Source: Picocystis sp. L7 (Eukaryota > Chlorophyta > Picocystophyceae > Picocystales > Picocystaceae). From it: a stretch of DNA of 64,000 nt. Shown here piece by piece: positions 38,576 through 64,000 of this stretch. The notes under the pieces are model-generated. The model searched no databases. It was not told where the DNA came from and was given only the letters and a program-made list of their open reading frames with translations. A program made the position numbers and the translations under genes. Position 1 is the first letter of the stretch. The number at the start of each line of letters is the position of its first letter. The stretch is from NCBI GenBank assembly GCA_020975725.1, contig QXJR01000017.1:373001-437000 (forward strand). The letters are read 5' to 3'.

Positions 38576-40231
38576 TCAGCCAGCCGCAGGCGGAATCTCG
38601 CGCAGTGAGTGTTTCTCCGATGATTTGATCGGTTTTGACATTGAATTGTTTGCCCAAAGTTTGCTGAAGTAACTCTTTCTCTTTTTCCTTGCATCTTCTG
38701 TTTCCTCTTGACACTTTGTCTCTCTGGAAACCCCTACAGACGTTGGCTTCTTTCCCTTTGCACCTGCGCTGAGAGAATTTCCTTCACAATCTGAAAAAGA
38801 GGAGGCCTTGATGAAAACTCGGCGAAAGCTACCAAACTTACCAACTGTATGTTTTTCTAGCATTTCATGCTGAGTTTTTGCCTTGCGCAGCATCTTATCC
38901 TCCATGTAGTATGACCTAAAACCACATTCCCTCCCTTCGGCCTCATTGCTAGGCTTGGACTTCCGGAACCATCCCAGTGGGGAGGATAAAGTCCGTCGGG
39001 GAGAAAAGGTGTCCTCTTCAGGCAAGGGGTGTGATTTAAGAGTGCAAAGCCCTGGAAGCATGCCCATTTTAGCAGGCATACAGCACGGACAATGGACCCG
39101 CCATTTCCCTCCAGCAACATCCATGGTATGTTCTAGGAGCTGGTGGGTTTTAATTGTCCAAACATCGATGGTCTCCCCAGACCAGGCCATTCCAGATTCT
39201 TTAGTGAATAGACGAGGCGTCCAAGTTGTAGCTGTAGACTTCCTGTGCTTACGCAGTGCTCTTTCTCTTGCCTCGACTTTTTGCTTCTCCTGTCCAGCCA
39301 ATTCCCCATTCCCTGCAAACAGGGCCCTTGTAAGGCCAGCCCAAACATACCGAGAGCTTTTCTCATCGTCTAAGTTCAAAGGTTCTGTGAAGTCCGCACG
39401 GAAAATGGGATCAAACTTGGTTTTGTATGAACAGTCCACCAGGACATCCCCCACGTTGAGCCCCACCTCACAGGAGCTGTGCGTGACCACGATCTTTCCT
39501 TTCCAAGAGCCTTTGAAGGACATCAAGATGGAATTTCCTGCAGCTGAAGGTGAGCAAGGATCCTTGTTGTAGCGGAAGACAGTGCCTCGAACGACGTTCC
39601 ATGAGCCAGTCGGATTCATGGTTCTTGGCTTGAATTCCAGCTGGGTGCACAGCTTGGTATCCCTACACAAAATCCTCGTTTTTCCCACCCATTCAGCACC
39701 CATGGGTGGTAGGAGCCGAAAGTGCAAGCTTAGGAGGGGCAATTCATACTTTTCCTCTTCCATCAGGCAAATGGAATTCCTGCCAATCATGCGAACCATG
39801 ACTCCTACACCCGTGAAAGTGGCCCGTGGTTCGAATTGCCCAGAGTATCTGACCTTTCCTTGCTCATCCTCAGCATAGTATGCAGTCACGGGCGGATGGT
39901 GTGAGACTTGCTCTGCGACCACATAGGCGTCCTTAGCCTTGAACATGTGTGTTTCCCCCAGAATAGGATTGTACGGTTTCTTCAGGTAGGCCGGCGTAGA
40001 AACGGAGTGCAGGAACCATTGTAGGACGCCAACCATCCTTTCCTCGGACGTCGGCAGCTGTGCTGGTCGACCTATCGTGTGCGTTTCGCTTCCAGCGTAG
40101 AACACGTCTTCCAGGACCTGCAGTGCACTCCTGGGCACCAGAAACTTCGAAGGCAGGGCCACGTCGTGTCTCAGCTCCTTACCAGGTCGCAGGGACTTCT
40201 TCAGGTCCACCTCGTCGTCCGTTGCGACCAT
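38576..40231 (-). CDS. Oxysterol-binding protein-related protein (copy 1)
   Basis: 551 residues from the ATG at 40231 without introns. The lipid-binding ORD is complete: YLKKPYNPILGETHMF (lid and entrance) and the signature EQVSHHPPVTAYYAED, then KGSWKGKIVVTHSSC. There is no PH domain or clear FFAT motif; the protein is of the short plant ORP type. These proteins move sterols or PI4P between membranes at contact sites. The C-terminal 170 residues are novel: a Cys-rich patch (WRVHCPCCMPAKMG) and a basic, Ser/Lys-rich tail. The second copy starts 1.9 kb upstream in the same orientation, so the pair is a tandem duplication. Four GTTAAC motifs lie 150-345 bases upstream. Confidence 0.92.
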   Translation of the reverse strand: MVATDDEVDLKKSLRPGKELRHDVALPSKFLVPRSALQVLEDVFYAGSETHTIGRPAQLPTSEERMVGVLQWFLHSVSTPAYLKKPYNPILGETHMFKAKDAYVVAEQVSHHPPVTAYYAEDEQGKVRYSGQFEPRATFTGVGVMVRMIGRNSICLMEEEKYELPLLSLHFRLLPPMGAEWVGKTRILCRDTKLCTQLEFKPRTMNPTGSWNVVRGTVFRYNKDPCSPSAAGNSILMSFKGSWKGKIVVTHSSCEVGLNVGDVLVDCSYKTKFDPIFRADFTEPLNLDDEKSSRYVWAGLTRALFAGNGELAGQEKQKVEARERALRKHRKSTATTWTPRLFTKESGMAWSGETIDVWTIKTHQLLEHTMDVAGGKWRVHCPCCMPAKMGMLPGLCTLKSHPLPEEDTFSPRRTLSSPLGWFRKSKPSNEAEGRECGFRSYYMEDKMLRKAKTQHEMLEKHTVGKFGSFRRVFIKASSFSDCEGNSLSAGAKGKKPTSVGVSRETKCQEETEDARKKRKSYFSKLWANNSMSKPIKSSEKHSLREIPPAAG

Positions 40232-42139: not shown

Positions 42140-43612
42140 CTATTTCTTGCCGGAGCTCCCTTTATTGCTTATTTTCTTTGACGTCTTGCCTTGACTTGTA
42201 GGTTCAGCACTTTCCGAACCTGTATTCCCCTTTTCCACCTCTGGCTCTTGTTTCTGTTTTCCGCGCCCCAGTTTCTTGAACATTCGCAGCGGAGAAGACA
42301 CTGCTTTAGTCGACGTTGAACTTTCGTTCTCTTCCTCTGCCAAGCCCAGGAGAGGGTGAGAGCGCAAAGTGCACGATGCTTCAGATGGCCTAAACTTGAA
42401 CAACTCGCAGCACGGACAATGAAATGGCCACACGCCACCACCTACCGACTTGAGATACTCCGACAATTCATGGGATCTAAGCTTCCAGATCGTGATCTTT
42501 TCTCCGCTCATGGCATGCCCTTCTGTAGGTTCAAAAAAGCGAGGACACCATTCTACTCCGCTCTCTTTCCGCCACTTTCTAAGTTTCCTCTCATACTGTT
42601 CAACTTTATGTTTCTCTGTCCCACTCGCTACATTATCCCCATCGTAGAGTGCAAGAGTAAGCTTCCTCCAGACTGCAGTGGAGCTCTTCTCGTCTTCTTT
42701 GTTCAGCACTTCAGTGAATTCAGGTCCAACGTCGGGGTTAACATCATACTTGTACTTGCCATCGACTATGACATCACCCTCAGCAGGATATCCTGCATAG
42801 TTGTTGTATGTCACAGCAACTTTTTCCATCCAGGATCCCCTGAACTGTAAGAGGATTTCCTCTCCCTTTCCATTCTTATTGGCACTGCTAGTTGGCAACC
42901 TTGAAATCTTCCCACTCACCACATTCCAGGATCCTCCTGGCAAAATTCCACGCGGCTTGAATTCAAGAGTGGTGCACAGTCCCGTCGCTTCACAGTGAAT
43001 CCTGACTTTTCCCACCCACTCCGCCCCTAGGGGTGGCAAGAGCCTCAGGTGCAAGCCGACCTGTGGCATCTCGTACAATTCTTTCCCTCTTATTTCTATG
43101 GAGCTCTTTCCTGTCATTCGGATGAGGATTCCCACCCCCGTAAACGTCGCATGAGGTTCGTACTGTCCCCAATACTTTGTGTTCCCGGAGAGATCTTCCC
43201 CGTAGAACGCGGTCACTGGTGGATGGTGAGACACTTGTTCTTCCAACATGTATCCATCTTGGGCTTTGAACACGTGTGTTTCTCCTAGTATGGGATTGTA
43301 GGGTTTCCTGAGATAGGGCGGTGCCGTGACCGTGTGGAGGTACCATCGGACCAAGCTCAACATTCTTCCTTCGGGTGTGGCTTGCAGTCCAATGCTGCTG
43401 AGTCCGTTTCGGGTCTCTCCTGCGTAGTACATGTCCTCCATCACCTCGAGCGCGCTCCTGGGCAGGAGCATCTTGGAGGGAACCGCAGTATCGTACCTCA
43501 CGGACTTTCCGGGACGCACGCCACGCAACACTTGTTTCATCACCGACAGCAGCGCTCCCCAGTTGTTGCTTCCACCTTCGCCATTCCTACCTTTTGCTTC
43601 CCTGGCCGACAT
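42140..43612 (-). CDS. Oxysterol-binding protein-related protein (copy 2)
   Basis: 490 residues from the ATG at 43612 (MSAREAKGRNGEGGSNNWGA). The frame is open to 43915, but only from a TTG, and the extra N-terminus is Pro/Arg-rich promoter-like sequence. The ORD matches copy 1 closely: YLRKPYNPILGETHVF, EQVSHHPPVTAFYGED, FTGVGILIRMTGKSSIEIRG, RGSWMEKVAVTYNNYAGYPA. The same C-terminal Cys patch is present (WPFHCPCCELFKF), as is a Lys/Ser-rich tail, so the novel tail predates the duplication. It has an extra acidic/basic end (KLGRGKQKQEPEVEKG). Predicted role as for copy 1. The ORD is highly similar between the copies, the tails much less. Confidence 0.92.
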   Translation of the reverse strand: MSAREAKGRNGEGGSNNWGALLSVMKQVLRGVRPGKSVRYDTAVPSKMLLPRSALEVMEDMYYAGETRNGLSSIGLQATPEGRMLSLVRWYLHTVTAPPYLRKPYNPILGETHVFKAQDGYMLEEQVSHHPPVTAFYGEDLSGNTKYWGQYEPHATFTGVGILIRMTGKSSIEIRGKELYEMPQVGLHLRLLPPLGAEWVGKVRIHCEATGLCTTLEFKPRGILPGGSWNVVSGKISRLPTSSANKNGKGEEILLQFRGSWMEKVAVTYNNYAGYPAEGDVIVDGKYKYDVNPDVGPEFTEVLNKEDEKSSTAVWRKLTLALYDGDNVASGTEKHKVEQYERKLRKWRKESGVEWCPRFFEPTEGHAMSGEKITIWKLRSHELSEYLKSVGGGVWPFHCPCCELFKFRPSEASCTLRSHPLLGLAEEENESSTSTKAVSSPLRMFKKLGRGKQKQEPEVEKGNTGSESAEPTSQGKTSKKISNKGSSGKK

Positions 43613-44129
43613 CTTCGCTTTCCCTTGCCTTTCTTCCTTCGATTCAGCTCCGTTCCATCCGTGATTCGCTTCCCGAAATCGCCTCCCACAGCCGCGAAGA
43701 TGCGCCAATCGTTGTGCGACACGAACCCGTCGGATGCAGTCGGCACGCTTCGCATCTGGTGGTTTCCTTTCCATTGGGGTTGGAAAGGGTTCGTTTGATC
43801 GAAGGGATTGGAAGGGGATCCTCGATGGATCCCGAGGAGAACCCACGACGAAAGGGAACAACAGGAAAAGAGGAGGCTCCACCAGGACAAGGGGAGGAAC
43901 CACGGCTGGAGACAAGAAGCGACCGTGTGTGGTGAAACCAACACCTCAAGCGACGGTTCAACAGCCACGGAGAAGGAAAGACAACTTTTAGTGAAAAAAT
44001 TCACACAACCCATGGTCGTGCTTCGTGCAAAAACGTGCATGTTAGCAAGAAAGGTAGGGGTATCCTGCAAGGGGCAAGGACTTACCCAAAAGATCTGGAT
44101 GAGGTATCGCCACACCCCTGCTCCTTCGT
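43613..44129. other. Intergenic region upstream of OSBP copy 2
   Basis: 0.5 kb between two minus-strand genes, containing the OSBP copy 2 promoter. No coding sequence is recognised. Confidence 0.4.
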
Positions 44130-48074: not shown

Positions 48075-50666
48075 CGCGTTGGAATGCGTCGCGAACCGGC
48101 CGCCTTCCCACAACGTCCCTCGTGGAATTGACCACAAAAATACCACGGCCGGTAATTTTTCCAAGAATGTGTGTGAGAAAAATACACGCGAAAAAACTAG
48201 ATGGAAGGGATTTGGAGGGTAAAGAGTTTCTTCTCTACCAGCGCGAGGGGGGACCGTTTCTCGAGGTGGAGTGGGATGCATGGAGACAAGCCATCAAAGG
48301 TCCCACACAAGTTCCTTGGTGTCCGATGGTTCTCGTGGGTGCCATTTCCCATTGTGGAAGCCGACATGGTAGATCCGAAGAAGATATCTCTGAGATGGGC
48401 GCCATCGGGTCGACCCAACCGCAAAACGAGTCTACCATGCCCCTCGTCTAAGCTCCACACTTGATCGGCTACAAAGCCTTGGGAGCGGCATGACCCACGT
48501 ATAATGATCGAATCAAACATGCATTTCCAAGGATTTCAACAATAAATGTTGTCTATGGAACGGAGTGGTAGATGGACGGGATGGACATTGAAAGAAAGTT
48601 CAACTTGTGTGCACATCACGAAACAAAGTCGCTCGTACCTGCGGAAATGTTCATACATGGAATGAAAGGACTTATCCTACAACTCGATAGGTAAGAAATA
48701 GTACAATCCGGTGAATCATCGGACGAAACTTTAGAACACCATTAAAAATTCCTACAACAGAGCGGATGATGACATCTTCAACGCATACAAACTTACTATT
48801 GGTGAAGGAGTGCTGAATGGTCTTACTGTCAAGAAATTTAAGGATGAGACGGCATCGCCGTTTGCTTTGGCGATTCGCCCAATTCACAGCGGTAACAATG
48901 ACCACCCAATGAGGATACTTTAGATTGCTCGGTAGGCCACAATGGTTTTTATATGAGAGGCACCCTTGACTTCGTTGTTTCTATCTTCTTTCCCTCAATT
49001 ACTACACAAAGATCCGAAAAAAGAGAAAGTGAAGACTCGATCAAGAGAACGAAAGCTCACACGTTTGCGCTGAGCAATTCACCCCTTGCGGAGACTAAAC
49101 ACAACTTGTATAACTCCGTGATCGCGTAGCAAGGTGATTCCTACCTAATTGCACAAGGGCAAAGAAGATGAGGGGCGATCTCTTTTTAGTTCTTGACAAC
49201 CTTGTGGGCCCACATGTTCTCTTGGAAAAATGAGGTTCGGTAAATATGAATCGTCAACATTGAGTTTGCCGCGGCCGGTCTTCGGTAACAACGTGCCCTT
49301 GTGTAAGAATCCTTAGTCTATTGGGCAGCGATCCTACGAGGGATACGTCTACTTCAAACGACGGCCTTTGAATCTTGAAAATCGGCTTTGTCCGAAGGGC
49401 ATAGTCCAATCATATCATCTTCCCAATACTCAAGCAAAGAAGGTAGGTCGGTATCTACCTATGGACCAAATGACCGCCATCTTCCCATCTAGCCAACACC
49501 TCCCTTCTACGCTTACATACATATGAGCGTAGGTGGACCTATTGTGCTCAGCTGTCCTACCTCACGAAAGGAACGCGATGGGTCCCCGAAACCCAACAAT
49601 GGATGACTCTGGTGTATGAAGCAAGGCTTGCTCGACAATTTGAGATAGTAAACGGTCTTTTTCCTTGCTCCTACGGGATTCGCTTAAGTAGATTGACACG
49701 TTTCCCATCATCCTAGGGATTTCAATTTGGTCCCTCGGCGAAGTGCACAACATAGGTTGTAGTTCGACAATGACCAGCTTCGGTTTGCAAGAGTTCTTGA
49801 TCATGTGATGAAGGCCAGGTTTTGATACAACACCTTTGAAACGCTAGCATTGATCCGTGGGTCCCAAAAGAAGCCAAAGACATCATTTCTATCGAAGAAA
49901 CTGTTAAAAGATATCTTTGTCACTTTTTGTGGCTTTGCGCAAGTACTATCAAGCATGGTGTTCTGAATATTGGTCGCCGGCGCAACCCCATTGGTCAAAG
50001 CTTGGTTGCTCTACATGGAGCAACTCTTGCGAGAAGGCCACACTTTTCGGCTCTCAATCAAGAGATCATACGAGATCCTCATATGCAACAACATTCCTTA
50101 CTTTGCATCACAGCAAGTTCACGACATCGAAATGCACTCAAAAGCAGTTTTACTCAATCAAACATGATGACCGCCAACTCCAAAGCATTTTTTCCTTGCC
50201 TATGTCCTTCCGGTGTCCCTACCATGCATGCAATTACGCCCTTTTCGCATTCAAACATGACGAGGAGTGGTAGGCATCGAAATGTGCTCGCAAGTAGGCA
50301 CGCTATCTGGAATTAGTACCCGCTTTTGGTTCCTCACCCGTTCGGACCCTCTAATGCATGAATATTCCTCGCTGAAATAGATGAATAAATCCTCCGATCT
50401 ACACTTTGTTGTTCAATCGATCCTAAGCTTGAAGGCGAAAACGTCTCCCGCGCACATCCACGACCTCAAACACAACTCCCTACACCCCGAAGGAGCTCAA
50501 GAACTAGAGAGCTCACACACAATACAAGCGAGGACCTCTCAAGGAGCAAAGAGAAGGAACTTCGGTGTGCAACTCGTTATTTGCATTTCAACCACGCCAA
50601 GTCTTCTACCTCTTGCCTTCCTTCAAGATTTTAGTAACACTGTCGTCCTAGATTGTATACTCTATT
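48075..50666. other. AT-richer, gene-poor left flank of the inverted repeat
   Basis: The first few hundred bases should be the promoter of the isopropylmalate dehydratase gene. From about 48500 to the repeat edge the DNA is clearly AT-richer than the gene regions. I see no open frame above about 140 codons and no recognisable domain. Confidence 0.55.
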
Positions 50667-52493
50667 CTTCCCCAACTCACACGAAGCAAGTTTGGCCGTG
50701 GGTTCAATTAAGGTCTTTGGTGAAGCACCCCTGGCTCCGCGCGGTCTCTTGCAACCCTACCTTGACGTCTCGCTCCTTTGCTTTCAATAGGAAACCGACA
50801 AGAGCATAGAGGTTGTTGTCCCTAAGAAGCAACATCCCTCAAGGTACGTCGTTGATTCGGGACCAAAACCTTGCCATGGCATCGAGGAACTCCGCCTTGT
50901 CGCCCAAGTTGTTTGCGTACTGGCTTCTATAAAGTTGATGCGGGGTTGGCCCATGGTGAGGGATGCAATCCAAGAGAAGATGGACGCAATGGTAACGGGG
51001 CACAAAAAGGGCGTTCTCGAATCCGGGGATTCCATCTTCGTGGTCTCGTTCCCACATGGAGTAGAAGACTAGGATAGCGATCTTGCTTCCTACAACACGG
51101 ATGCCATGACGGCTTCCCTCGTGGGTAATCCTATTGCTCGGTCCGCTCGAGACTCCTATCCCAAGTCCTTTCTTCGTCGATTTCTCCGTCGCATGTGGGG
51201 GCAAAAGCCGCAAAGTCCAACACCGAGGCGACGGCCGTTGAGGCCGAGCGGCTTGCATGGACGCAACAAGCCCTCCCCCTACCCCCCCGCGCTCCTCCAC
51301 ACCGGTCGAGGAGGGACCCGTCCTTCAAGACTAGGTGGAATCCACGCCCTCGAGGAAATCTAAAGATGACACCGAGGCACTTTCCACGTGCATGGACGGC
51401 CGTGTCTCGCAAGTAGGAGAAGCCTGCACGGGGACCCACGGAGTACGGACGGCCCAAGCGTTCGGAGGTTTTCTTGCGCGAGGAACCTCCTATACGCCTA
51501 GTTTTGTTGAGGGAGAAAGCAAGCAAATTTTCGCCAAGCCCTCTTTCCCGCGCGAATTGCGATCGTTCTAGGCGAACAAAGCATTTGAACATAGGGACGT
51601 CATGACGTTTCGGACCACCCCCTCCATGTGCCCGTAGGGATACCACAGGAGGACGCCGCCCTCCAAGAAAAGCTAAAAGACGAGCACGCGTGTGGGCGTT
51701 GCGTGGTTGCCTTGACCCACCCGGCCAACCAACGCTTGCGTGAAGAGGGCGCGGGGTGCACATGGAGGGATCCTTGACTTGACGGGTGGATGATGCCCGT
51801 CAAAGGGCCGGACCTACTCCTTGTCCAGGCCCGTCCACTAAGGCGTTACCAAGATTGGCACGGAGGGATGCACTCCCGGAGTCCTCGACAACCGAACGTG
51901 AGGACCCATGGCATGCGCTTGGGCGCAAGTTCACGTTGAACCTCCCTACTTTGCGTTTGGGAACGATGCGCGAATCGAGCAAGCGAGACCATGCTGGTGT
52001 GGGACGCTTGTCCACGCGGAAACGAGAAGGTCCCTCCTTCCAATAATCCCAACACCTCGGGGCAGCACGCCCCCCTTCCGATCACGCAAGGTGAATCTTT
52101 CAAACACACGAAGAGAGGTCTGAAGTGCTCGAGGGCATCCTCGTGGAAGGCCTCGTCTTTTGCCGCCGTGCAAGGACCGGATGGAAGAGAGTCGAACCGA
52201 CCCCTTGAACATGCTCCCCTTTAATGGTAGTTGAAGTCCCCCTTCCCCGCCCTACATCACAAACACCACCCCACATCGCCACCAACTCCGTCGTCCCCAT
52301 GGGAACACGTGCCAAACACACAAGCCAACATCATGCGGACCATGAAGGGTGCAAGGCCGCACGAGCCGAGGGGCCCGAGGCTAACAATGCACCTTTGAGG
52401 GAGCGTCCGGGGCCAAGGGGGGGGCAGGAGGCTTGGGATCTACGCACAAAAAACAACGTACTACTAGCTTACAGATTGTCCGATGCCTGCATC
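50667..52493. other. Outer 1.8 kb of left arm, no assigned gene
   Basis: GC-rich, downstream of the left amine oxidase gene. A minus-strand open frame of 210 codons (51131..51763, mirrored at 59172..59804) and another of 153 codons (50839..51300, mirrored at 59635..60096) exist, but arm identity makes their shared openness uninformative. No domain is recognised. Confidence 0.4.
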
Positions 52494-54875
52494 TCAAGCG
52501 TTGGCCGCAAAGGTGGAAGGAATGTTGTCAAAGGAAGGAATGCACCCACCCTCGTTCGCCCATTCCATGATCTTGGGCAACGGCTTCTCCTCGTCCGGCA
52601 CGTTTCCGTCCGCGCCGAAGAGATCAGACACGTCCATGGCAGCATTCTCATCAAAGTAGTTGAAGGGGATCAAAGTGAACCCGGCCCTGTTGCCGTGGGT
52701 GGTGGGCGTCACGGGCACGTCCTCCGAGTGAGGGATGTGGTAGGTCCCACTCGTGATCCAGAGGACCAAATCCTCTCCCACAATGTTCTCCTCGTCCAGG
52801 TAGGTATCAAAATCAAGAGCAGGGGCGCCAGGGAAGATGTCGTCTTGCTCCAGGGAGGACGTCCACTCCTGCTCGCTACGCTTGGTCACCGCCACGTTGT
52901 ACTTGGTCCAAGCAAAGCTGGCAAGGGCCGGATCATCATCGGGATACACCTGGTGATGCGGGGTGGCATGCAGAGCGTACCCACGGGGGGTGCCCCAGCT
53001 GTTGGTCTGCTCTGTGCTCTGGACCACAAACTTCATCGGCGTGGCCGGGTTCATGTTCATGCCAAACTCCGTCTCCGCAATCATCTTGTTCAGCCTCTTG
53101 GTGGTCCACAGGCGCCCGGCCTGATCCTCGAAACGCCAGGGCACAACATAGTCCATCTCGATCTGGTTGGAGGTGCCTCCGATGTCCAGGTCCACCTTCC
53201 AGTTCATCGTGTGATCGTGCAGCGCGCTGGCCATGCCATAGTGCACCTGATTGCCAAAGGCCTGGGACACCGTGGGCACGTAGCTGGAACCCTGCATGTA
53301 TCCGGACAGGATGGCGTTCACGTCCATGCTGCCGTCCAGGTTGAGCTGGAGCTGTTGGATGTAGTCGTAGTTTCCAATGGTCAACTTGGTGCGGATGATC
53401 AGGGCCGTGTTGCGCACGCCGCCTCCACCGACACCGGCGGTGAAGTCATGGATCACCAGGGGCAGCGCCGTGTCGTACTCAAACACGCACCAGGCCCTCC
53501 TTCCAATGCGTCCCTCGCCGTCTCCGCCAAGGGCTTGGAAGGCATCGATGTACGCGGCATTCAAGGCACAGTCGATGCCCGGCACCATCTCCGATCCGCG
53601 GTACCCCTGAGAGTAGGTCACCCCGTCGTAGTACTGGGTGTGATGCAGGCCGCTGTCGTGTCCCCCGTAGGCAGCAAAGGCCTCTTGGTGGGAGATCTCG
53701 TACGCAATCCTCTCTCCCTTGAACATGATGTTGTACAGCTTGGGGCCGCGCTTGCTCTCGGCAAGCTCCAGCTCCCACCCCATCCAGTTCACTTTGTTGC
53801 GGTCAATCTGGTAACGCGCGCCATAAGGATCGAACGAGATGGCGGCCAAAGGCTTGTCTGGGCTCCTGGAAGGTCCGGGCCTGGGCTGGAAGGTGGCGTA
53901 CAAGGCCTCCTCCTGGGTGTCAAACAAGGGAATGGTCCACGACTTCCACTCCTCATTGGCAGGGTCGTCCCACGCCGCCAGGACCTCCTCCACGCTGGGG
54001 TACACCGTTCCCATGAGGTTGATGCCCACCAGCTGGGGGCCGCCCTCCGCGAAGGTGTGGAAGTCAAAGGTGATGTGGCTCAAACGATGAAGGTGGTTCC
54101 CTTGGAAGGAACGGGTTTCACCGCCGTCGATCCCTGGAAGGACACGCATCAACCCATAGGTCGTGAACACATCAAACTGGCTGCGATCCCCGATCTCGGG
54201 CACGACCTGGTGGGGTCCCACCTGACGGATGCTCATACACTTGGTCGTGCAGTTGGGGTCCAGCGGGCTGGCATCCTCGTACACGTGGCTGATGATGGGG
54301 TAGAGGTCCCCGTTCACCAGTTCGGTGACCATGTCCATCATGGGCGTGGTGTGGTCGTCGGATGTGACGCCAAGTTCCTGGTGGAACACTTCCTCACGTC
54401 CCTGGATGACGGGAATACGCTCCCAAGAGCTGGGCTCGGGCAGGTCCACCTTCAAGGCAATGCGGGCCAAGCTTCCGTCCTCCTTCTCCACCACCATGTC
54501 GGCGCGGGCCGCACGGGGAGGCGCTGCACCGTCCCCGTCCAGGTAGGCCAGAACATCCGCCTTGGGGGGATCAAAGCGTTCAATGGAGATCCAGGAGGAG
54601 AAGTTGAGGGGAGCCCAGGCACCCGAATCGTTCTCTTCCAAGAGGTACATACGGACAGCGTTGTACTCTTCCATGCTCAGGCTCTCGAAGAAGTTGGGCT
54701 CTGGCGACATGCAGCTGACCCGATCCGGATGGTCCAAGCTGCTGCATGGGTCCGGGGATGCACAGAAAGCCCCATTGGCGGCCGTGAGGTCCGAACCGTT
54801 CTCTTCCGTTTGAGCATGGGCTTGGTGGAGTCCAAGGAGGGCCATTCCGGCCAGGATCCACGTCGTCTTCACCAT
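52494..54875 (-). CDS. Copper amine oxidase, left copy
   Basis: 793 residues from the ATG at 54875 (MVKTTWILAGMALLGLHQAH), which starts a clean signal peptide cleaved near QAHAQ. The frame is open 168 codons further upstream, but that part is promoter-like. The enzyme is a primary-amine oxidase: it oxidises amines to aldehydes with release of H2O2 and ammonia, using copper and TPQ. The TPQ site TIGNYDY (Tyr503) fits T-x-x-N-Y-D/E-Y. Copper ligands are H553 and H555 in LHDHTMNWKVDLDIGG and probably H727 in TTHGNRAGFTLIPFNYF. The N2/N3-like regions lie before residue 320. The protein is probably secreted or vacuolar. It has no intron. It differs from the right copy at 11 residues over the 961-codon frame. 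Confidence 0.93.
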   Translation of the reverse strand: MVKTTWILAGMALLGLHQAHAQTEENGSDLTAANGAFCASPDPCSSLDHPDRVSCMSPEPNFFESLSMEEYNAVRMYLLEENDSGAWAPLNFSSWISIERFDPPKADVLAYLDGDGAAPPRAARADMVVEKEDGSLARIALKVDLPEPSSWERIPVIQGREEVFHQELGVTSDDHTTPMMDMVTELVNGDLYPIISHVYEDASPLDPNCTTKCMSIRQVGPHQVVPEIGDRSQFDVFTTYGLMRVLPGIDGGETRSFQGNHLHRLSHITFDFHTFAEGGPQLVGINLMGTVYPSVEEVLAAWDDPANEEWKSWTIPLFDTQEEALYATFQPRPGPSRSPDKPLAAISFDPYGARYQIDRNKVNWMGWELELAESKRGPKLYNIMFKGERIAYEISHQEAFAAYGGHDSGLHHTQYYDGVTYSQGYRGSEMVPGIDCALNAAYIDAFQALGGDGEGRIGRRAWCVFEYDTALPLVIHDFTAGVGGGGVRNTALIIRTKLTIGNYDYIQQLQLNLDGSMDVNAILSGYMQGSSYVPTVSQAFGNQVHYGMASALHDHTMNWKVDLDIGGTSNQIEMDYVVPWRFEDQAGRLWTTKRLNKMIAETEFGMNMNPATPMKFVVQSTEQTNSWGTPRGYALHATPHHQVYPDDDPALASFAWTKYNVAVTKRSEQEWTSSLEQDDIFPGAPALDFDTYLDEENIVGEDLVLWITSGTYHIPHSEDVPVTPTTHGNRAGFTLIPFNYFDENAAMDVSDLFGADGNVPDEEKPLPKIMEWANEGGCIPSFDNIPSTFAANA

Positions 54876-56055
54876 CTTCCCAGGGGCTCGGGCGCTCGTC
54901 GGAGCACTGGAGCACCTGCAAGGGGACGCGTCCAGGAACGCGTGCTCGTCGCGAGCAGGAAGAAGTGACGGCTCATCTTCCATCCGCCCTTCATTGGACC
55001 CTCCTTGGGGTGGGCCATGGGACCAGGAGGACCACCACGTGGCAACCGTAGGAGAGGGCGGACACGCCTTCCGGATCACGTGATCGATCCCCCCCTCGCA
55101 TGGTCGGTTCACGTCATCGGGAGAGGCACAGGCAGGGCGGATCCTTTTGCCCATGGACGGACCACGTGCGTCTCCGTACGATGGATCCCTTCCCGTCCTC
55201 GGACGGATCGAGGGTTCGCCCCGTTCGGTGATCGGGTTTCGACGTTTCCTTTCCACCCCGCCGGTTCGCCTCCCCATCCCTGGGTTCGGTGCTGCACGTG
55301 GGTTCAACGACCGAGGATCACGTGATCCCCTGGGGACGGGGGCGATGGAACGAGGGCAACCGAACCCCCCCCCAAACAAGATCGGGACTTGCGGTGGAAA
55401 CGGTGTTTGGAATCTCTGGGAGATACGAAACGCCCCGTCCGAGTGTTCTCATGATGGACCGGAGATCGCACGTGACACTTCGAATCGAGGGTTAGGACCC
55501 TGCAGATACGGAGAATCCTTGCTCTAAAGATGTGGACCGCAAGTCTCGATCTTGTTTGGGGGGGGGTTCGGTTGCCCTCGTTCCATCGCCCCCGTCCCCA
55601 GGGGATCACGTGATCCTCGGTCGTTGAACCCACGTGCAGCACCGAACCCAGGGATGGGGAGGCGAACCGGCGGGGTGGAAAGGAAACGTCGAAACCCGAT
55701 CACCGAACGGGGCGAACCCTCGATCCGTCCGAGGACGGGAAGGGATCCATCGTACGGAGACGCACGTGGTCCGTCCATGGGCAAAAGGATCCGCCCTGCC
55801 TGTGCCTCTCCCGATGACGTGAACCGACCATGCGAGGGGGGGATCGATCACGTGATCCGGAAGGCGTGTCCGCCCTCTCCTACGGTTGCCACGTGGTGGT
55901 CCTCCTGGTCCCATGGCCCACCCCAAGGAGGGTCCAATGAAGGGCGGATGGAAGATGAGCCGTCACTTCTTCCTGCTCGCGACGAGCACGCGTTCCTGGA
56001 CGCGTCCCCTTGCAGGTGCTCCAGTGCTCCGACGAGCGCCCGAGCCCCTGGGAAG
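54876..56055. promoter_or_regulatory. Palindromic divergent promoter of the amine oxidase pair
   Basis: The 1180 bases between the two start codons consist of the inner ends of both arms around a unique spacer (55395..55536). Both genes are therefore read outward from the same near-identical promoter sequence. GATCACGTGATC palindromes (CACGTG E-box core) occur in both arms (for example 55077..55084 and 55317..55325 regions). Confidence 0.6.
55395..55536. other. 142-base spacer at inverted-repeat centre
   Basis: Unique sequence between the arms; it contains CTCATGATGGACC and CGAGGGTTAGGACCCTGC but no dyad with the arms. It is the likely hairpin loop if the repeat folds. Confidence 0.75.
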
Positions 56056-58437
56056 ATGGTGAAGACGACGTGGATCCTGGCCGGAATGGCCCTCCTTGGA
56101 CTCCACCAAGCCCATGCTCAAACGGAAGAGAACGGTTCGGACCTCACGGCCGCCAACGGGGCTTTCTGTGCATCCCCGGACCCATGCAGCAGCTTGGACC
56201 ATCCGGATCGGGTCAGCTGCATGTCGCCAGAGCCCAACTTCTTCGAGAGCCTGACCATGGAAGAGTACAACGCTGTCCGTACGTACCTCCTGGAAGAGAA
56301 CGATTCGGGTGCCTGGGCTCCCCTCAACTTCTCCTCCTGGATCTCCATTGAACGCTTTGATCCCCCCAAGGCGGATGTTCTGGCCTACCTGGACGGGGAC
56401 GGTGCAGCGCCTCCCCGTGCGGCCCGCGCCGACATGGTGGTGGAGAAGGAGGATGGAAGCTTGGCCCGCATTGCCTTGAAGGTGGACCTGCCCGAGCCCA
56501 GCTCTTGGGAGCGTATTCCCGTCATCCAGGGACGTGAGGAAGTGTTCCACCAGGAACTCGGCGTCACATCCGACGACCACACCACGCCCATGATGGACAT
56601 GGTCACCGAACTGGTGAACGGGGACCTCTACCCCATCATCAGCCACGTGTACGAGGATGCCAGCCCGCTGGACCCCAACTGCACGACCAAGTGCATCAAC
56701 GTCCGTCAGGTGGGACCCCACCAGGTTGTGCCCGAGATCGGGGATCGCAGCCAGTTTGATGTGTTCACGACCTATGGGTTGGAACGCGTGCTACCGGGGA
56801 TTGATGGTGGAGAGACCCGTTCCTTCCAAGGCAGTTACCTTCATCGTTTGAGCCACATCACCTTTGACTTCCACACCTTCGCGGAGGGCGGCCCCCAGCT
56901 GGTGGGCATCAACCTCATGGGAACGGTGTACCCCAGCGTGGAGGAGGTCCTGGCGGCGTGGGACGACCCTGCCAATGAGGAGTGGAAGTCGTGGACCATT
57001 CCCTTGTTTGACACCCAGGAGGAGGCCTTGTACGCCACCTTCCAGCCCAGATCTGGACCTTCCAGGAGCCCAGACAAGCCTTTGGCCGCCATCTCGTTCG
57101 ATCCTTATGGCGCGCGTTACCAGATTGACCGCAACAAAGTGAACTGGATGGGGTGGGAGCTGGAGCTTGCCGAGAGCAAGCGCGGCCCCAAGCTGTACAA
57201 CATCATGTTCAAGGGAGAGAGGATTGCGTACGAGATCTCCCACCAAGAGGCCTTTGCTGCCTACGGGGGACACGACAGCGGCCTGCATCACACCCAGTAC
57301 TACGACGGGGTGACCTACTCTCAGGGGTACCGCGGATCGGAGATGGTGCCGGGCATCGACTGTGCCTTGAATGCCGCGTACATCGATGCCTTCCAAGCCC
57401 TTGGCGGAGACGGCGAGGGACGCATTGGAAGGAGGGCCTGGTGCGTGTTTGAGTACGACACGGCGCTGCCCCTGGTGATCCATGACTTCACCGCCGGTGT
57501 TGGTGGAGGCGGCGTGCGCAACACGGCCCTGATCATCCGCACCAAGTTGACCATTGGAAACTACGACTACATCCAACAGCTCCAGCTCAACCTGGACGGC
57601 AGCATGGACGTGAACGCCATCCTGTCCGGATACATGCAGGGGTCCAGCTACGTGCCCACGGTGTCCCAGGCCTTTGGCAATCAGGTGCACTATGGCATGG
57701 CCAGCGCGCTGCACGATCACACGATGAACTGGAAGGTGGACCTGGACATCGGAGGCACCTCCAACCAGATCGAGATGGACTATGTTGTGCCCTGGCGTTT
57801 CGAGGATCAGGCCGGGCGCCTGTGGACCACCAAGAGGCTGAACAAGATGATTGCGGAGACGGAGTTTGGCATGAACATGAACCCGGCCACGCCGATGAAG
57901 TTCGTGGTCCAGAGCACAGAGCAGACCAACAGCTGGGGCACCCCGCGTGGGTACGCTCTGCATGCCACCCCGCATCACCAGGTGTATCCCGATGATGACC
58001 CGGCCCTTGCCAGCTTTGCTTGGACCAAGTACAACGTGGCGGTGACCAAGCGTAGCGAGCAGGAGTGGACGTCCTCCCTGGAGCAAGACGACATCTTCCC
58101 TGGCGCCCCTGCTCTTGATTTTGATACCTACCTGGACGAGGAGAACATTGTGGGAGAGGATTTGGTCCTCTGGATCACGAGTGGGACCTACCACATCCCT
58201 CACTCGGAGGACGTGCCCGTGACGCCTACCACCCACGGCAACAGGGCCGGGTTCACTTTGATCCCCTTCAACTACTTTGACGAGAATGCTGCCATGGATG
58301 TGTCTGATCTCTTCAGCGCGGATGGAAACGTGCCGGACGAGGAGAAGCCGTTGCCCAAGATCATGGAATGGGCAAACGAGGGTGGGTGCATTCCTTCCTT
58401 TGACAACATTCCTTCGACCTTTGCGGTGAACGCTTGA
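56056..58437 (+). CDS. Copper amine oxidase, right copy
   Basis: 793 residues; the same signal peptide, TPQ site (codon 57562) and copper ligands as the left copy. Differences from the left copy include SLTMEEYNAVRTY (left SLSMEEYNAVRMY), CINVRQVG (left CMSIRQVG), YGLERVLPG (left YGLMRVLPG), GSYLHR (left GNHLHR), RSGPS (left RPGPS), LFSADG (left LFGADG) and FAVNA (left FAANA). None touches a cofactor residue, so both copies look functional. Several substitutions fall in two dense patches in the N2/N3 region rather than being spread evenly. Transcribed divergently from the left copy. Confidence 0.93.
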   Translation: MVKTTWILAGMALLGLHQAHAQTEENGSDLTAANGAFCASPDPCSSLDHPDRVSCMSPEPNFFESLTMEEYNAVRTYLLEENDSGAWAPLNFSSWISIERFDPPKADVLAYLDGDGAAPPRAARADMVVEKEDGSLARIALKVDLPEPSSWERIPVIQGREEVFHQELGVTSDDHTTPMMDMVTELVNGDLYPIISHVYEDASPLDPNCTTKCINVRQVGPHQVVPEIGDRSQFDVFTTYGLERVLPGIDGGETRSFQGSYLHRLSHITFDFHTFAEGGPQLVGINLMGTVYPSVEEVLAAWDDPANEEWKSWTIPLFDTQEEALYATFQPRSGPSRSPDKPLAAISFDPYGARYQIDRNKVNWMGWELELAESKRGPKLYNIMFKGERIAYEISHQEAFAAYGGHDSGLHHTQYYDGVTYSQGYRGSEMVPGIDCALNAAYIDAFQALGGDGEGRIGRRAWCVFEYDTALPLVIHDFTAGVGGGGVRNTALIIRTKLTIGNYDYIQQLQLNLDGSMDVNAILSGYMQGSSYVPTVSQAFGNQVHYGMASALHDHTMNWKVDLDIGGTSNQIEMDYVVPWRFEDQAGRLWTTKRLNKMIAETEFGMNMNPATPMKFVVQSTEQTNSWGTPRGYALHATPHHQVYPDDDPALASFAWTKYNVAVTKRSEQEWTSSLEQDDIFPGAPALDFDTYLDEENIVGEDLVLWITSGTYHIPHSEDVPVTPTTHGNRAGFTLIPFNYFDENAAMDVSDLFSADGNVPDEEKPLPKIMEWANEGGCIPSFDNIPSTFAVNA

Positions 58438-60268
58438 GATGCAGGCATCGGACCATCTGTAAGCAAGTAGTACGTTCTGTTCTTTCTGTGCGTAGATCCC
58501 AAGCCTCCTGCCCCCCCCTTCCTTGGCCCCGGACGCTCCCTCAAAGGTGCATTGTTAGCCTCGGGCCCCTCGGCTCGTGCGGCCTTGCACCCTTCATGGT
58601 CCGCGTGACGTTGGCTTGTGTGTTTGGCACGTGTTCCCATGGGGATGACGGAGTTGGTGGCGATGTGGGGTGGTGTTTGTGATGTAGGGCGGGGAAGGGG
58701 GACTTCAACTACCATTATAGGGGAGCATGTTCGAGGGGTCAGTTCGACTCTCTTCCATCCGGCCCTTGCACGGCGGCAAAAGACGAGGCCTTCCAGGGGG
58801 ATGCCCTCGAGCACTTCAGACCTCTCTTCGTGTGTTTGAAAGATTCACCTTGCGTGATCGGAAGGGGGGGCGTGCTGCCCCGAGGTGTTGGGATTATTGG
58901 AAGGAGGGACCTTCTCGTTTCCGCGTGGACAAGCGTTCCACACCAGCATGGTCTCGCTTGCTCGATTCGCGCATCGTTCCCAAACGCAAAGTAGGGAGGT
59001 TCAACGTGAACTTGCGCCCAAGCGCATGCCATGGGTCCTCACGTTCGGTTGTCGAGGACTCCGGGAGTGCATCCCTCCGTGCCAATCTTGGTAACGCCTT
59101 AGTGGACGGGCCTGGACAAGGAGTAGGTCCGGCCCTTTGACGGGCATCATCCACCCGTCAAGGATCCCTCCATGTGCACCCCGCGCCCTCTACACGCAAG
59201 CGTTGGTTGGCCATGTGGGTCAAGGCAACCACGCAACGCCCACACGCGTGCTCGTCTTTTAGCTTTTCTTGGAGGGCGGCGTCCTCCTGTGGTATCCCGA
59301 CGGGCACATGGAGGGGGTGGTCCGAAACGTCATGACGTCCCTATGTTCAAATGCTTTGTTCGCCTAGAACGATCGCAATTCGCGCGGGAAAGAGGGCTTG
59401 GCGAAAATTTGCTTGCTTTCTCCCTCAACAAAACTAGGCGTATAGGAGATTCCTCGCCCAACAAAACCTCCGAACGCTTGGGCCGTCCATACTCCGTGGG
59501 TCCCCGTTCGGGCTTCTCCTACTTGCAAGACACGGCCGTCCATGCACGTGGAAAGTGCCTCGGTGTCATCTTTAGATTTCCTCGGGGGCGTGGATTCCAC
59601 CTAGTCTTGAAGGACGGGTCCCTCCTCAACCGGTGTGGAGGAGCGCGGGGGGGTAGGGGGAGGGCTTGTTGCGTCCATGCAAGCCGCTCGGCCTCAACGG
59701 CCGTCGCCTCGGTGTTGGACTTTGCGGCTTTTGCCCCAACATGCGACGGAGAAATCGACGAAGAAAGAACTTGGGATAGGAGTCTCGAGCGGACCGAGCA
59801 ATAGGATTACCCACGAGGGAAGCCGTCATGGCATCCGTGTTGTAGGAAGCAAGATCGCTCTCCTAGTCTTCTACTCCATGTGGGAACGAGACCACGAAGA
59901 TGGAATCCCCGGTTTCGAGAACGTCCTTTTTGTTCCCCGTTACCGTTGCGTCCATCTTCTCTTGGATTGCATCCCCCACTATGGGCCAACCCCGCGTCAA
60001 GTAAATAGAAGCTTATACGCGAACAACTTGGGCGACAAGGCGGAGTTCCTCGATGCCATGGCAAGGTTTTGGTCCCGAATCAACGACGTACCTTGAGGGG
60101 TGTTGCTTCTTAGGGACAACAACCTCTATGCTCTTGTCGGTTTCCTATTGAAAGCAAAGGAGCGAGACGTCAAGGCAGGGTTGCAAGAGACCGCGCGGAG
60201 CCACGGGTGCTTCACCAAAGACCTAAATTGAACCCATGGCCAAACTTGCTTCGTGTGAGTTGGGGAAG
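58438..60268. other. Outer 1.8 kb of right arm, no assigned gene
   Basis: Mirror of 50667..52493. The plus-strand frames 59172..59804 (210 codons) and 59635..60096 (153 codons) have no known domain. Confidence 0.4.
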
Positions 60269-61690
60269 TTTTTTTACACGCCATGACTGAGATTGGCATT
60301 GCCAGATAAAAATTATTTTGAAGGCACAAGGTCCCACCCATCAACATTGAACCAATCACCCGGTGCAGGAGTTGCTTGAGTGTTCTTGCCAATCTTCCCC
60401 AGACGTCTTCCATCTCTCTTACCTGTGATATGCTCTTGGCCCACAAGAAAGTCAAACAAAGTTTGCATGCGGCGCCTTGTGGTCACAGTTGTCATGGACA
60501 ACATCTCGGGGACTCGTTTCGAACCTTGTGTCCGTGAATGGGAATTGTATCGAGAGCGATTTTGAATCGCAGGCTCCATGGTATCACGACGAATGTAAGC
60601 ATCGCACATCTTAGGATTTGTTCCCTCCTCTCATCTTGCAAGGGCAACGTGTAGCCTTTGCGGCTAGCTCACTCTCTCTTTGCAAGACCCAACATTGAAA
60701 AATTTGTATGTGAAGGGGAGCGCTATTCACGACATCATATTTGGTGATCCTTGCGTGAAGAAGCAAAAGTTAAAATCGATGGGTGGTAGGAGTTCAATCA
60801 AAATGGCGACTTTCCTTTCTTAGGGAGAACCAAGTTAATGCTCGTGTTGCACAATCGTCCGTCCCGATTTCCTTCTCTATCGTGTGAATTTGAAGAGTCT
60901 CCTCTCTTGGAAACGTCGTTGTGGAACTTTAGCCTCTTTCGTACACTCTTACACATTGAAAGTCTTCAACTTGGATGGGGGGTGAGGAAGGGAAATGCTC
61001 TAGTCGATTGGATGAAATTAAGCCAAGTAAGCGACCATTTCTTGTGCTCCTTGGTAAGATCAACCATGCCGTAAAAGGTAAAAGGAAGCGCTTGATGGGA
61101 GAGTAAGGAAATACATCGATAGTTCAAGGATACAACTTGTACGAGATGCTATATGGCGCACATACCAATCTTGTGCATGTTGGCTAGACCATCGATGTCG
61201 CCATACATAGCTTTTAAAACATTGACTCGTCCTTTCAGGCCACTACGTTGCCACGGTTGTGGACGACAACGCCATTCCACATTCCTTCTTCCCAAGCAAG
61301 AAGTTCCGAAGTGATGAATACCATGCGGAATTTTGTTTCGAAGAGTCGACCTTTTCAAGGTTAAGTACAACGGGTGCAGTTCTCGTCGAAGAAGTCCTCG
61401 ACGTGGTGCTTTCCCCGGTTGTCAATAAAAACGGTCTGCTCTTCTTATCCATGAATAGACCGTTTGCGAATCACAAGTCGTCTTCATAAAGGGTAGGCAT
61501 GCCATATAGATTCCCTTAAAGGTCTCTCCTCACTCCTCCGACTCCATGCAAGGGGGAATTTCTTTGAGAAAGACCATGTGGCGATCCCGAGGTTGCTACC
61601 ATCTTTTCGACTTCGCAAATACACCGCCCATTGTAGAGCGGTTGGCCTTTCGTGCGACCTACATAGGTGCTAATTGTACAAATCCCCATG
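60269..61690. other. AT-richer right flank of the inverted repeat
   Basis: AT-richer and gene-poor, like the left flank but not a mirror of it. One minus-strand frame of 98 codons (60313..60609; TRRRMQTLFDFLVGQEHITG) reads smoothly and might be a piece of a gene or element; I cannot assign it. Confidence 0.45.
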
Positions 61691-61741
61691 TGTCCTATAT
61701 ATAGGACAATAAGGGGTTTATTGTCCTATATATAGGACAAT
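61691..61741. repeat. Doubled perfect palindrome TGTCCTATATATAGGACA
   Basis: TGTCCTATATATAGGACA at 61691..61708 and TTGTCCTATATATAGGACAA at 61721..61740 (the match extends one more base each side, 61720..61741). Both are perfect palindromes, separated by 12 bases of ATAAGGGGTTTA type sequence. Confidence 0.9.
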
Positions 61742-63244
61742 CTTCGTGATTGGAGGACTTTTTTGAAGATCGCCCAATTTTAAACAAAGGTTTGATGAAA
61801 AGATACCCAAGACATGGAGCATTCATGGGACGGCTTTCCGAAGGGCATGTTTGGTTTCGATTTCCGAGGGAACGGGGGTTGACGTTACGACCAAGGGTTT
61901 TTTGACGTTTTGGTGCATGATCCGATCGAAGCGGCGAAAGCCGCAGTCGCGTCAAAACGAGCTTGTTGGAGTGCGCGTTTGCATTCCAGCAAGAGAGTTT
62001 GGAGAGGAATGGGCCCGCCAGACGCATGGTGACGCGTGGAACTCCACGTCGTACATGAAAGGGACTTTGGGTCCCAGGCCCCCCTACGAGGAGCCTCGGT
62101 CTCCCCTCCATCCTGGGTCACCCAACCAAGGGCCCCAGGATTCGGTTATACTAGCTTATGCGTGGGTGGTCCCCTCTGGCTTGATTGGAGACAGACAGTC
62201 CCCCCCCACCCCACCGCCACTTTTTCTTCATAGGGAGAGAGGGGCTGTCGCTGTGGGATCCGTGGAGCCTCGGGTGGACCTCTCCAGACGTTGCTCCTCC
62301 AATCGAAGTTGTAGAGCACTCCGTGTTGAGGGGTTTGGATCGATGGACCCCGACCTGGTTCGACCCGTGCAAGAGCAGGGAGGCCCGTGCACGTCCCAGG
62401 GTCTTTCGGGGCTGGATCCTGCCTCGTTTCCCCTGGCGGGTGCTCCTTCCTTTCGACGCGCGTATCTCTTCGAATATGGGTTCAAATCGAGCGAACGATA
62501 GCTCGTTGGATAGGTCTCGGCGCGTTCTTTCGAACGGTGCTCTCAAAATGCCCAAATTCTGCCTGGCACGAGTTCTAGAGTCGAAAAACCACCGGCAGGT
62601 GGTGGGGACCCCAAACGGCACCGCTGCTCAACACCTCCCCGAGGGCAGCCAGGCATCCACATAGAACCGGACCGCCAAACTTTAGGAGAGGAAAGAGAGA
62701 AAGATAGGACACCTTCAGGAGAAAAAGCACATCGAGAGTCGATGCTCCTGGTGCCATGAAGCGCATGTTCAACCGCCTGGCCAAAACGCCCCAAAAAGGG
62801 TGAATTTTGGAACACCCCCGAGCCAGCCGCGCCGAGTTCACCGGAAAGACGAACGATCCAGGACCAACCAAGCTCAGATTCGGATTCTCCTCGTCGAATC
62901 ACCCAGAAACACCACAAAAAAGAAGGGGGAACAGGCCTGATGTGAAGAAAAAGCCAGAGGACTCACGCTTCCCCGAAGTGGCGGTGGGGTGGGTACGTGG
63001 GGGGCGTTTCGGGATCTGCTGGATTGGGGGGGGCGTGGCGCCCGAAGTACGAGGTTTCTGGTCCTGAAATTCAAACCGTAGTTGATCCGGACGATGTACA
63101 ATTCACCTGCCAAATCTCGTTGTCCTGCCGTCACTCAGCGAGTGGCAGTGCCCCCGAGAGTCACCGCTGGTAGGTATGGCAGGTTTGGAGGGGGGGTGCT
63201 GTCAACTCCCCTCCCCCAGCACACAGGGTGAGCAAGGGAGGATT
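61742..63244. other. Gene-poor stretch before the transposase
   Basis: Mixed-composition DNA without a recognisable gene. Frames at 61851..62501 and 62185..62664 have no known domain. The 5' terminal inverted repeat of the downstream transposon should lie in the last few hundred bases but cannot be defined without the other end. Confidence 0.4.
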
Positions 63245-64000
63245 ATGGGGTGGAATCGAAAGAGGAAAGACCAAATACAGCACCGACCGGAGTTCAAGGC
63301 AAAGCGCTTCGTGATGGGGAAGAAGCGCACAAAAAAGCCATCACCAGGCCTCATGGAGGAAGCGGCCATCCAGGCCACCAAAGCGGCGTACAAGGTGCTG
63401 AGTGGGAATCTCTCCGCCACGTCCAAGGTTATGAAGCGGAGTTGGGTGACAGTGAAGTCTTGGGTGAAGGATCGTAAGCCCAAAGCTCCTTCCTCTTCAA
63501 AACGTCGTTCCCTCTCTTATGCCCGTGGTCATGGCAAGTGGCTGTGCAACTTGCTCAAGTCTCGTGCACTTGAAGGCCAGGCCATGGGAACAAGGGACGT
63601 CATGAGCGAGTGGGAAGCACGGTACGGACGGAGAGTACCGTTGAGGACCTTGCAACGGCTGTTGAAGGATTTGGGGGTGAAGACCAAGGTCCAAAAAAAG
63701 GTGATGAAGTTGCAGGCCTCGCACAAGGCCAATAGAGTGAAGTTTGCGGAACGGCACTTGGGGGATGATTTTGGGCGGGTTCTTTTCACGGATGCCCACC
63801 AAATTTACCTGGGAACCACCAAGCACAAAGGCTCCAAACGAACCCTGGTCCCTCCTGGTACCACACCCCTCGTGGAGTACAACATGGCCCCCCCACGAAT
63901 CAAAGTGTATGGTGGGGTGTGTGCCCGTGGACTCACAGGCCTGTTGACAGTCACGGGGACCACCGGGCAGCCCAGTGACTTCAAGGATGGACAAGGGAAG
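63245..64000 (+). CDS. Tc1/mariner-like DDE transposase, cut by window end
   Basis: An open frame of 252 codons from the ATG at 63245 (another at 63314), with no stop before the window ends. The N-terminal third is helical and basic, fitting a helix-turn-helix DNA-binding region (SATSKVMKRSWVTVKSWVKD and MSEWEARYGRRVPLRTLQRL, LKDLGVKTK). The catalytic part starts HKANRVKFAERHLGDDFGRV and has LFTDAHQIYLG (first catalytic Asp) and RIKVYGGVCARGLTGLLTVT, the beta-strand block before the second Asp of Tc1/mariner enzymes. The second Asp and third residue lie beyond the window. The unbroken frame suggests a young or still active copy of a cut-and-paste DNA transposon. Confidence 0.8.
   Translation, partial: MGWNRKRKDQIQHRPEFKAKRFVMGKKRTKKPSPGLMEEAAIQATKAAYKVLSGNLSATSKVMKRSWVTVKSWVKDRKPKAPSSSKRRSLSYARGHGKWLCNLLKSRALEGQAMGTRDVMSEWEARYGRRVPLRTLQRLLKDLGVKTKVQKKVMKLQASHKANRVKFAERHLGDDFGRVLFTDAHQIYLGTTKHKGSKRTLVPPGTTPLVEYNMAPPRIKVYGGVCARGLTGLLTVTGTTGQPSDFKDGQGK

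Follow-up and report, generated by a model that had tools for sequence, protein, structure and literature searches.

A 9.6 kb inverted duplication with two outward-reading copper amine oxidase genes in the alga Picocystis sp. L7, probably homogenised by gene conversion between its arms

A palindromic pair of copper amine oxidase genes

We analysed a stretch of 64,000 nucleotides (the window, C15:373001-437000) from the Picocystis sp. L7 assembly, which comprises 20.5 Mb in 30 contigs. The window contains a palindrome in which two long inverted arms with intact genes flank a unique spacer (Table 1). An inverted-repeat search returned four inverted pairs that jointly cover both arms with a complementarity of 97-100%. 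The original prediction had described mirrored arms of about 4.73 kb, which the alignment bears out, around a spacer of 142 bases, which we measure at 140. A global alignment of the arms has 4,724 ungapped columns, of which 94 are substitutions (98.0% identity), and four indel events; blastn gives 97.8% identity over 4,740 columns. The substitutions comprise 62 transitions and 32 transversions. This length and identity exclude a chance origin of the likeness between the arms. The edges are sharp: outside 50667 and 60268, similarity between the two flanks is at the level that the aligner returns for unrelated DNA. The palindrome is the sole inverted pair among the 40 longest matches listed, down to 545 bp, in a self-comparison of 210 kb of C15.

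Table 1. Features of the palindrome, in window coordinates.
Feature	Coordinates	Strand	Evidence or remark
Left arm of inverted repeat	50667..55395	-	Inverted-repeat search and arm alignment
Copper amine oxidase gene, left copy, 793 codons	52494..54875	-	PF01179, E 1.1e-92
Divergent region between the start codons, 520 bp per arm plus spacer	54876..56055	.	11 CACGTG boxes
Central spacer, 140 bp	55396..55535	.	Inverted-repeat search and genome search; one genomic place
Right arm of inverted repeat	55536..60268	+	Inverted-repeat search, arm alignment and whole-arm genome search
Longest perfect arm-to-arm identity, 610 bp	55547..56156 (mirror in left arm 54775-55384)	+	Reached in 1 of 20,000 random placements
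Copper amine oxidase gene, right copy, 793 codons	56056..58437	+	PF01179, E 1.1e-92; amine oxidases in the PDB
Divergent island in coding sequence, codons 213-261	56694..56836 (mirror 54095-54237)	+	Core codons 243-261 at 56782-56838, silent sites saturated
Candidate open frame in outer arm, 210 codons	59172..59804 (mirror 51131-51763, -)	+	7 silent and 8 replacement differences
Second divergent island, outer arm	59924..60024	+	13 differences within 100 bp; 0 of 5,000 random placements

Each arm carries an intact open frame of 961 codons, running from 55379 to 52494 on the minus strand and from 55552 to 58437 on the plus strand, and the likely ATG gives 793 codons in each case. The expectation of two complete head-to-head genes of 793 codons, read outward, is thereby confirmed with both frames intact. 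The coding sequences differ at 44 nucleotides and the proteins at 11 of 793 residues (67, 76, 214, 215, 216, 243, 260, 261, 333, 754 and 791). The count of 11 had been anticipated, although it was expressed there per 961 codons.

Both copies match the Cu_amine_oxid profile (Pfam accession PF01179) at 311.5 bits against a cut-off of 27, with residues 348-747 covering profile positions 4-407 of 407, which places them in the copper amine oxidase family. The residues N502-Y505 (NYDY), H553/H555 and D417 are invariant across seven aligned proteins and align with solved amine oxidases. We take NYDY to be the topa-quinone motif, the HxH histidines to be the copper pair and the aspartate to be catalytic. 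The encoded enzymes thus resemble topa-quinone amine oxidases in their catalytic domain, NYDY motif, HxH pair and catalytic aspartate. The closest relatives of the right copy in the PDB are animal liver and membrane amine oxidases, followed by lysyl oxidase 1n9e and a diamine oxidase; plant, bacterial and yeast peroxisomal amine oxidases rank lower.

Neither copy has a Pfam match to the N-terminal N2 domain, which is weakly detected in a related protein, P0004. By eye, the amine oxidase copies have a hydrophobic N-terminus that forms a putative signal peptide, and the enzyme is probably secreted. Judged from their sequence, both genes look functional. A structure prediction had a mean pLDDT of 38.8 and was left unused. 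The right copy of the 210-codon open frame in the outer arm has no Pfam match and is a candidate only, not demonstrably a gene.

The start codons are 1,180 bp apart, and this interval contains 11 copies of CACGTG, of which each arm has five and the spacer one (at 55036, 55077, 55163, 55295, 55319, 55469, 55607, 55631, 55763, 55849 and 55890). This is the densest such cluster in the 210 kb examined. The 520 bp of a single arm hold five copies against 0.36 expected from the 210 kb; none of 2,000 dinucleotide shuffles reaches five, and neither does any other 520 bp stretch of the 210 kb. CACGTG is a bHLH/bZIP (G-box) site. The natural inference is that both copies would be jointly regulated and their output doubled. 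A dosage benefit, or nitrogen scavenging through the use of amines, may follow from such an arrangement; any gain could also lie in the peroxide that the enzyme releases.

Genomic setting, paralogues and assembly

The palindrome lies in the interior of C15, a contig of 681,679 bases whose right end is a telomere-like TTTAGGG repeat; the left end does not have this repeat. A neighbouring gene encodes a chromate transporter that is 99% identical to a protein of JGI source (P0008). Among the 120 of its 606 relatives that were listed, those with an organism given come from green algae and from some liverworts and mosses, at 42-53% identity. Elsewhere in the window, 38576-40231 and 42140-43915 each contain an oxysterol-binding-protein gene, both on one strand.

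Several repeats occupy the same contig. Positions 61672-62055 of the window form a repeat of about 380 bp that has five other genomic places (on C27, twice on C3, on C20 and on C18) at 85-100% identity, and a 49 bp section of it matches in the reverse direction too, a layout like that of small inverted-repeat transposons. About 1.8 kb beyond the right arm, an LTR retrotransposon starts (window 62056-64000, C15:435056-448837). Its first LTR is interrupted by 6.4 kb of tandem Tc1/mariner-like DNA with three 787 bp repeats and two transposase frames, and its second LTR copy starts at C15:448233. This LTR family is also present elsewhere, including six pairs spaced 6,765 bp apart. Further along the contig, a 4.78 kb repeat is arrayed head to tail in almost five copies at C15:488347-511091, with partial copies from 483733 and to 512927. 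Long self-matches of this repeat have 97.7-99.4% identity, and in the one copy that was read an open frame codes for type I polyketide synthase domains.

Contig C12 carries two more amine oxidase genes (C12:604934-606161 and C12:611953-614220). The third genome member of the family, on C12, has 81% protein identity to the palindromic genes over residues 36-790, with a putative membrane anchor and a proline-rich linker of SPTPGP type recognised by eye. Part of its protein is identical to P0004, which is of JGI source. This match and that of the chromate transporter to P0008 make it probable that the JGI material included this species or a very near relative. A fourth, distant amine oxidase lies about 6 kb from the C12 paralogue and was matched in two pieces, at 27% and 40%. 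One relative protein, P0003, shares 92% identity with the right copy, and a search with residues 205-290 returned only P0003 and P0004 among 28 candidates.

The assembly was searched for further copies of the right arm, the spacer and both flanks. The right arm, searched in two overlapping pieces, occurs in two places, which are the two arms, and matches the C12 paralogue at 74% in the coding part only. The spacer occurs in one place. Searched with the left flank (48550-50800), the genome returned the flank itself, 134 bp that belong to the opposite arm, and three brief matches at 69-82%. The right flank (60100-62200) matched itself, 168 bp of the opposite arm and, from about 1.4 kb outside the arm, repeat families (40 of 88 candidates scored). 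These genome searches returned no second haplotype copy of the arms, the flanks or the spacer.

These results bear on whether the palindrome is an assembly artefact, in which two alleles, or a chimeric foldback contig, were joined head to head. A join of two alleles had been put forward as the main alternative, and both foldback chimeras and allelic joins are known failure modes of assembly. Alleles would be expected to have related outer flanks, whereas the flanks here are unrelated, the edges are sharp and a second haplotype copy was not found, which weakens the allelic join and sets it aside as the main reading. The arms of a foldback chimera of one read should be nearly identical, rather than separated by 94 substitutions with, in the coding part, a bias towards silent sites (dN/dS of about 0.1). 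The mix of transitions and transversions, together with the four indel events, is unlike long-read error. Also against an artefact are the single genomic place of the spacer and the position of the site inside a 682 kb contig. We regard an artefact as quite improbable.

Two other origins were rejected. A mobile element built of the arms does not fit, as the whole right arm matches only the two arms and the C12 paralogue and the spacer occurs once. A viral origin was set aside because the amine oxidase patterns had no match in a viral collection.

A mosaic of identical and divergent tracts

Differences between the arms are not evenly spread. Their spacing is overdispersed to a degree that none of 5,000 random placements reaches, with or without the coding island. 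The two long identical runs measure 610 and 446 bp, whereas in random placements the longest run averages 233 bp (p 5e-05), and the 610 bp run retains a p of 0.00075 when 56690-56840 is excluded. This run takes in the first 33 codons and, apart from its first 11 bp, the whole of the 520 bp upstream part. The upstream part as a whole has a single difference, and the outermost 464 bp have 20.

At the other extreme, 16 of the 57 nucleotides in the core of the coding island differ. About 12 (11.7) of the 14 silent sites in this core are changed, as opposed to 18 of 494 outside codons 213-261 (Fisher p 1.4e-14). The silent divergence of the core (pS) is 0.83 between the arms, and 0.83 and 0.845 between each arm and the C12 paralogue. 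By comparison, silent sites are only 1.8% diverged across codons 262-500. Over the whole gene, silent divergence is 0.063 and dN/dS is 0.107; outside codons 213-261, pS is 0.036 and dN/dS is 0.077. These low ratios suggest either purifying selection on both copies or conversion that keeps them alike. A burst of mutation was rejected as the origin of the island because about 12 of the 16 core changes are silent, whereas a burst free of selection should leave about a quarter of its changes silent (p 3e-5).

The second divergent island lies in outer-arm DNA in which no gene was recognised. Its only genomic places are the two arms, and it has no similarity to the C12 paralogue.

Identical tracts thus stand beside divergent tracts beyond what chance would produce. 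This mosaic, which the original prediction had not described, is the main evidence that homogenisation has been recent or is ongoing. The earlier view that the arms are no trivial duplicate of one read is likewise supported. Runs of concordant sites among those variable relative to the C12 paralogue point the same way, the longest run having a p of 0.022 over all sites and of 0.0099 over the silent ones. The silent-site test is not significant without codons 213-261 (p 0.094).

Four codons set the arms apart in their likeness to other proteins: there, the right copy has the residue of the C12 paralogue and the left copy that of P0003 (left/right: 67 S/T, 243 M/E, 260 N/S and 261 H/Y); the reverse occurs at none. 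Among the 16 core differences, the C12 paralogue agrees with the right copy at seven, with the left at three and with neither at six. For the 44 differences of the whole gene, the corresponding numbers are 16, 12 and 16. The four-codon pattern fits an old split between the arms, after which nearly everything was overwritten by conversion. It also fits a patch that was copied from a C12-like gene into the right arm. The second island, in DNA without similarity to the C12 paralogue, favours the old split over such a patch. In its present form, the C12 gene is rejected as the donor of the island, as six of the 16 core differences match it in neither copy and a genome search with 39 bases of the right-arm island, tolerating up to three mismatches, gave a single place.

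A patch of this kind is part of a rival history. In that history, a single inverted duplication arose recently by a foldback or template switch, silent divergence has since reached about 2-4%, and the right arm later acquired the island by conversion from a third amine oxidase gene, now lost or located outside the assembly, with no continuing conversion between the arms. The failure of the silent-run test to reach significance without codons 213-261 agrees with this account, as do the right-arm island residues E243, S260 and Y261, which are shared with the C12 paralogue, and the greater agreement of that paralogue with the right copy in the core. So does P0003, which at the 11 differing residues equals the left copy at eight, the right at two and neither at one; the same result would be expected if the gene had simply been duplicated recently and the right copy had then changed. 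This history must, however, accommodate a 39-base piece that is unique in the genome and core differences that disqualify the present C12 gene as donor. It must also contend with a second island in DNA that has no C12 counterpart, and it leaves the 610 bp identical central run unexplained. We consider it unlikely.

A further possibility is that the duplication is old and that the centre owes its identity not to conversion but to purifying selection that acts on promoter and signal peptide. The dense CACGTG boxes of the upstream part, unmatched in 210 kb, are what such constraint might look like. Selection would not easily hold silent sites at 1.8% divergence in codons 262-500, directly beside the saturated codons 243-261. 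The first 33 codons are identical between the arms, yet against P0003 they show three substitutions and two indels at the protein level. Purifying selection as the sole keeper of the centre is therefore highly improbable, and upstream constraint could be a partial cause of the central identity.

Gene conversion, stability and comparison with known palindromes

Conversion between the arms accounts best for these observations. We consider it probable (roughly 0.68), on the strength of sequence comparison, that the palindrome is a real inverted duplication, that it has been homogenised by arm-to-arm gene conversion that missed the islands, and that it is older than its average divergence suggests. 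Both the conversion and the age are read from one assembly. The duplication, of 9.6 kb in total, would have taken in the upstream region, the amine oxidase gene, the 3' region and distal DNA of lower GC content on a nuclear chromosome. A seed repeat from a foldback-type origin would by now belong to the arms. The arms would then have repaired each other by non-allelic gene conversion, aided by their close inverted layout. Conversion would have passed lately over the centre, where 610 bp are identical, and over other stretches, and would have missed the islands. As one island in the coding sequence and one in the outer arm appear to carry older divergence, the average difference of 2% would under-state the age of the duplication.

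How far back the duplication reaches is a more tentative matter. Protein identity between the arms is 98.6%, compared with 92% to P0003, a comparison with a single relative protein. Possibly, though at rather less than even odds, the palindrome is older than the split from the species of P0003. It would then form a self-correcting two-copy unit, in which conversion preserves a shared promoter and secreted enzymes and the islands retain M-N-H in one copy and E-S-Y in the other (residues 243, 260 and 261).

The original prediction reasoned that long palindromes are unstable and took one with two intact genes as a sign of recent duplication, ongoing homogenisation or selection for dosage. A review (PMC7999016) states that longer and more similar arms raise the risk, that longer spacers lower it, and that a 52 bp spacer abolished frequent fork stalling in eukaryotic cells. 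This effect of spacers weakens the argument from instability: with a spacer of 140 bp, long survival is plausible, if not certain.

Gene palindromes are discussed mostly for sex chromosomes, asexual animals and cancer. Those of the Y chromosome are far larger than the algal one, with longer spacers. PMC5490193 describes gene palindromes in the human Y chromosome, in Adineta vaga (17) and in Folsomia candida (11). All are gene-bearing inverted duplications, for which conversion is shown in the case of the Y and discussed for the others (PMC5490193). The algal palindrome differs from these in its single gene, arms of 4.7 kb, spacer of 140 bp and islands.

Closer parallels are found in Drosophila, where the Amy-p/Amy-d and Hsp70 genes form palindromic pairs that evolve in concert, with ectopic gene conversion inferred (review PMC3924832). 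Like the algal genes, they are two linked palindromic copies with inferred conversion. In the Amy genes of the melanogaster group, homogenisation is confined to the coding sequence according to the same review, whereas in the alga it includes the central upstream region. The Amy3/Amy4 pair of D. kikkawai is closer to the algal palindrome, as both coding and non-coding sequence are homogeneous; PMC3924832 leaves conversion and duplication undecided for this pair. Among the literature matches listed, judged by title and start of abstract, there was no comparable nuclear gene palindrome in an alga, and a copper amine oxidase survey across the tree of life (PMC12058724) mentions green algae. The arrangement is uncommon, yet of a kind that is already known.

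For the alga, two genes that read outward from a shared, nearly mirror-identical upstream region would be co-regulated and would supply a doubled output of topa-quinone amine oxidase. The substrate would be an amine, converted with O2 and H2O to an aldehyde, NH3 and H2O2. More broadly, the locus cautions that average identity cannot date inverted duplicates. A compact, gene-bearing algal palindrome with a readable mosaic would be a tractable system for measuring conversion tracts and the stability of palindromes in a small eukaryote.
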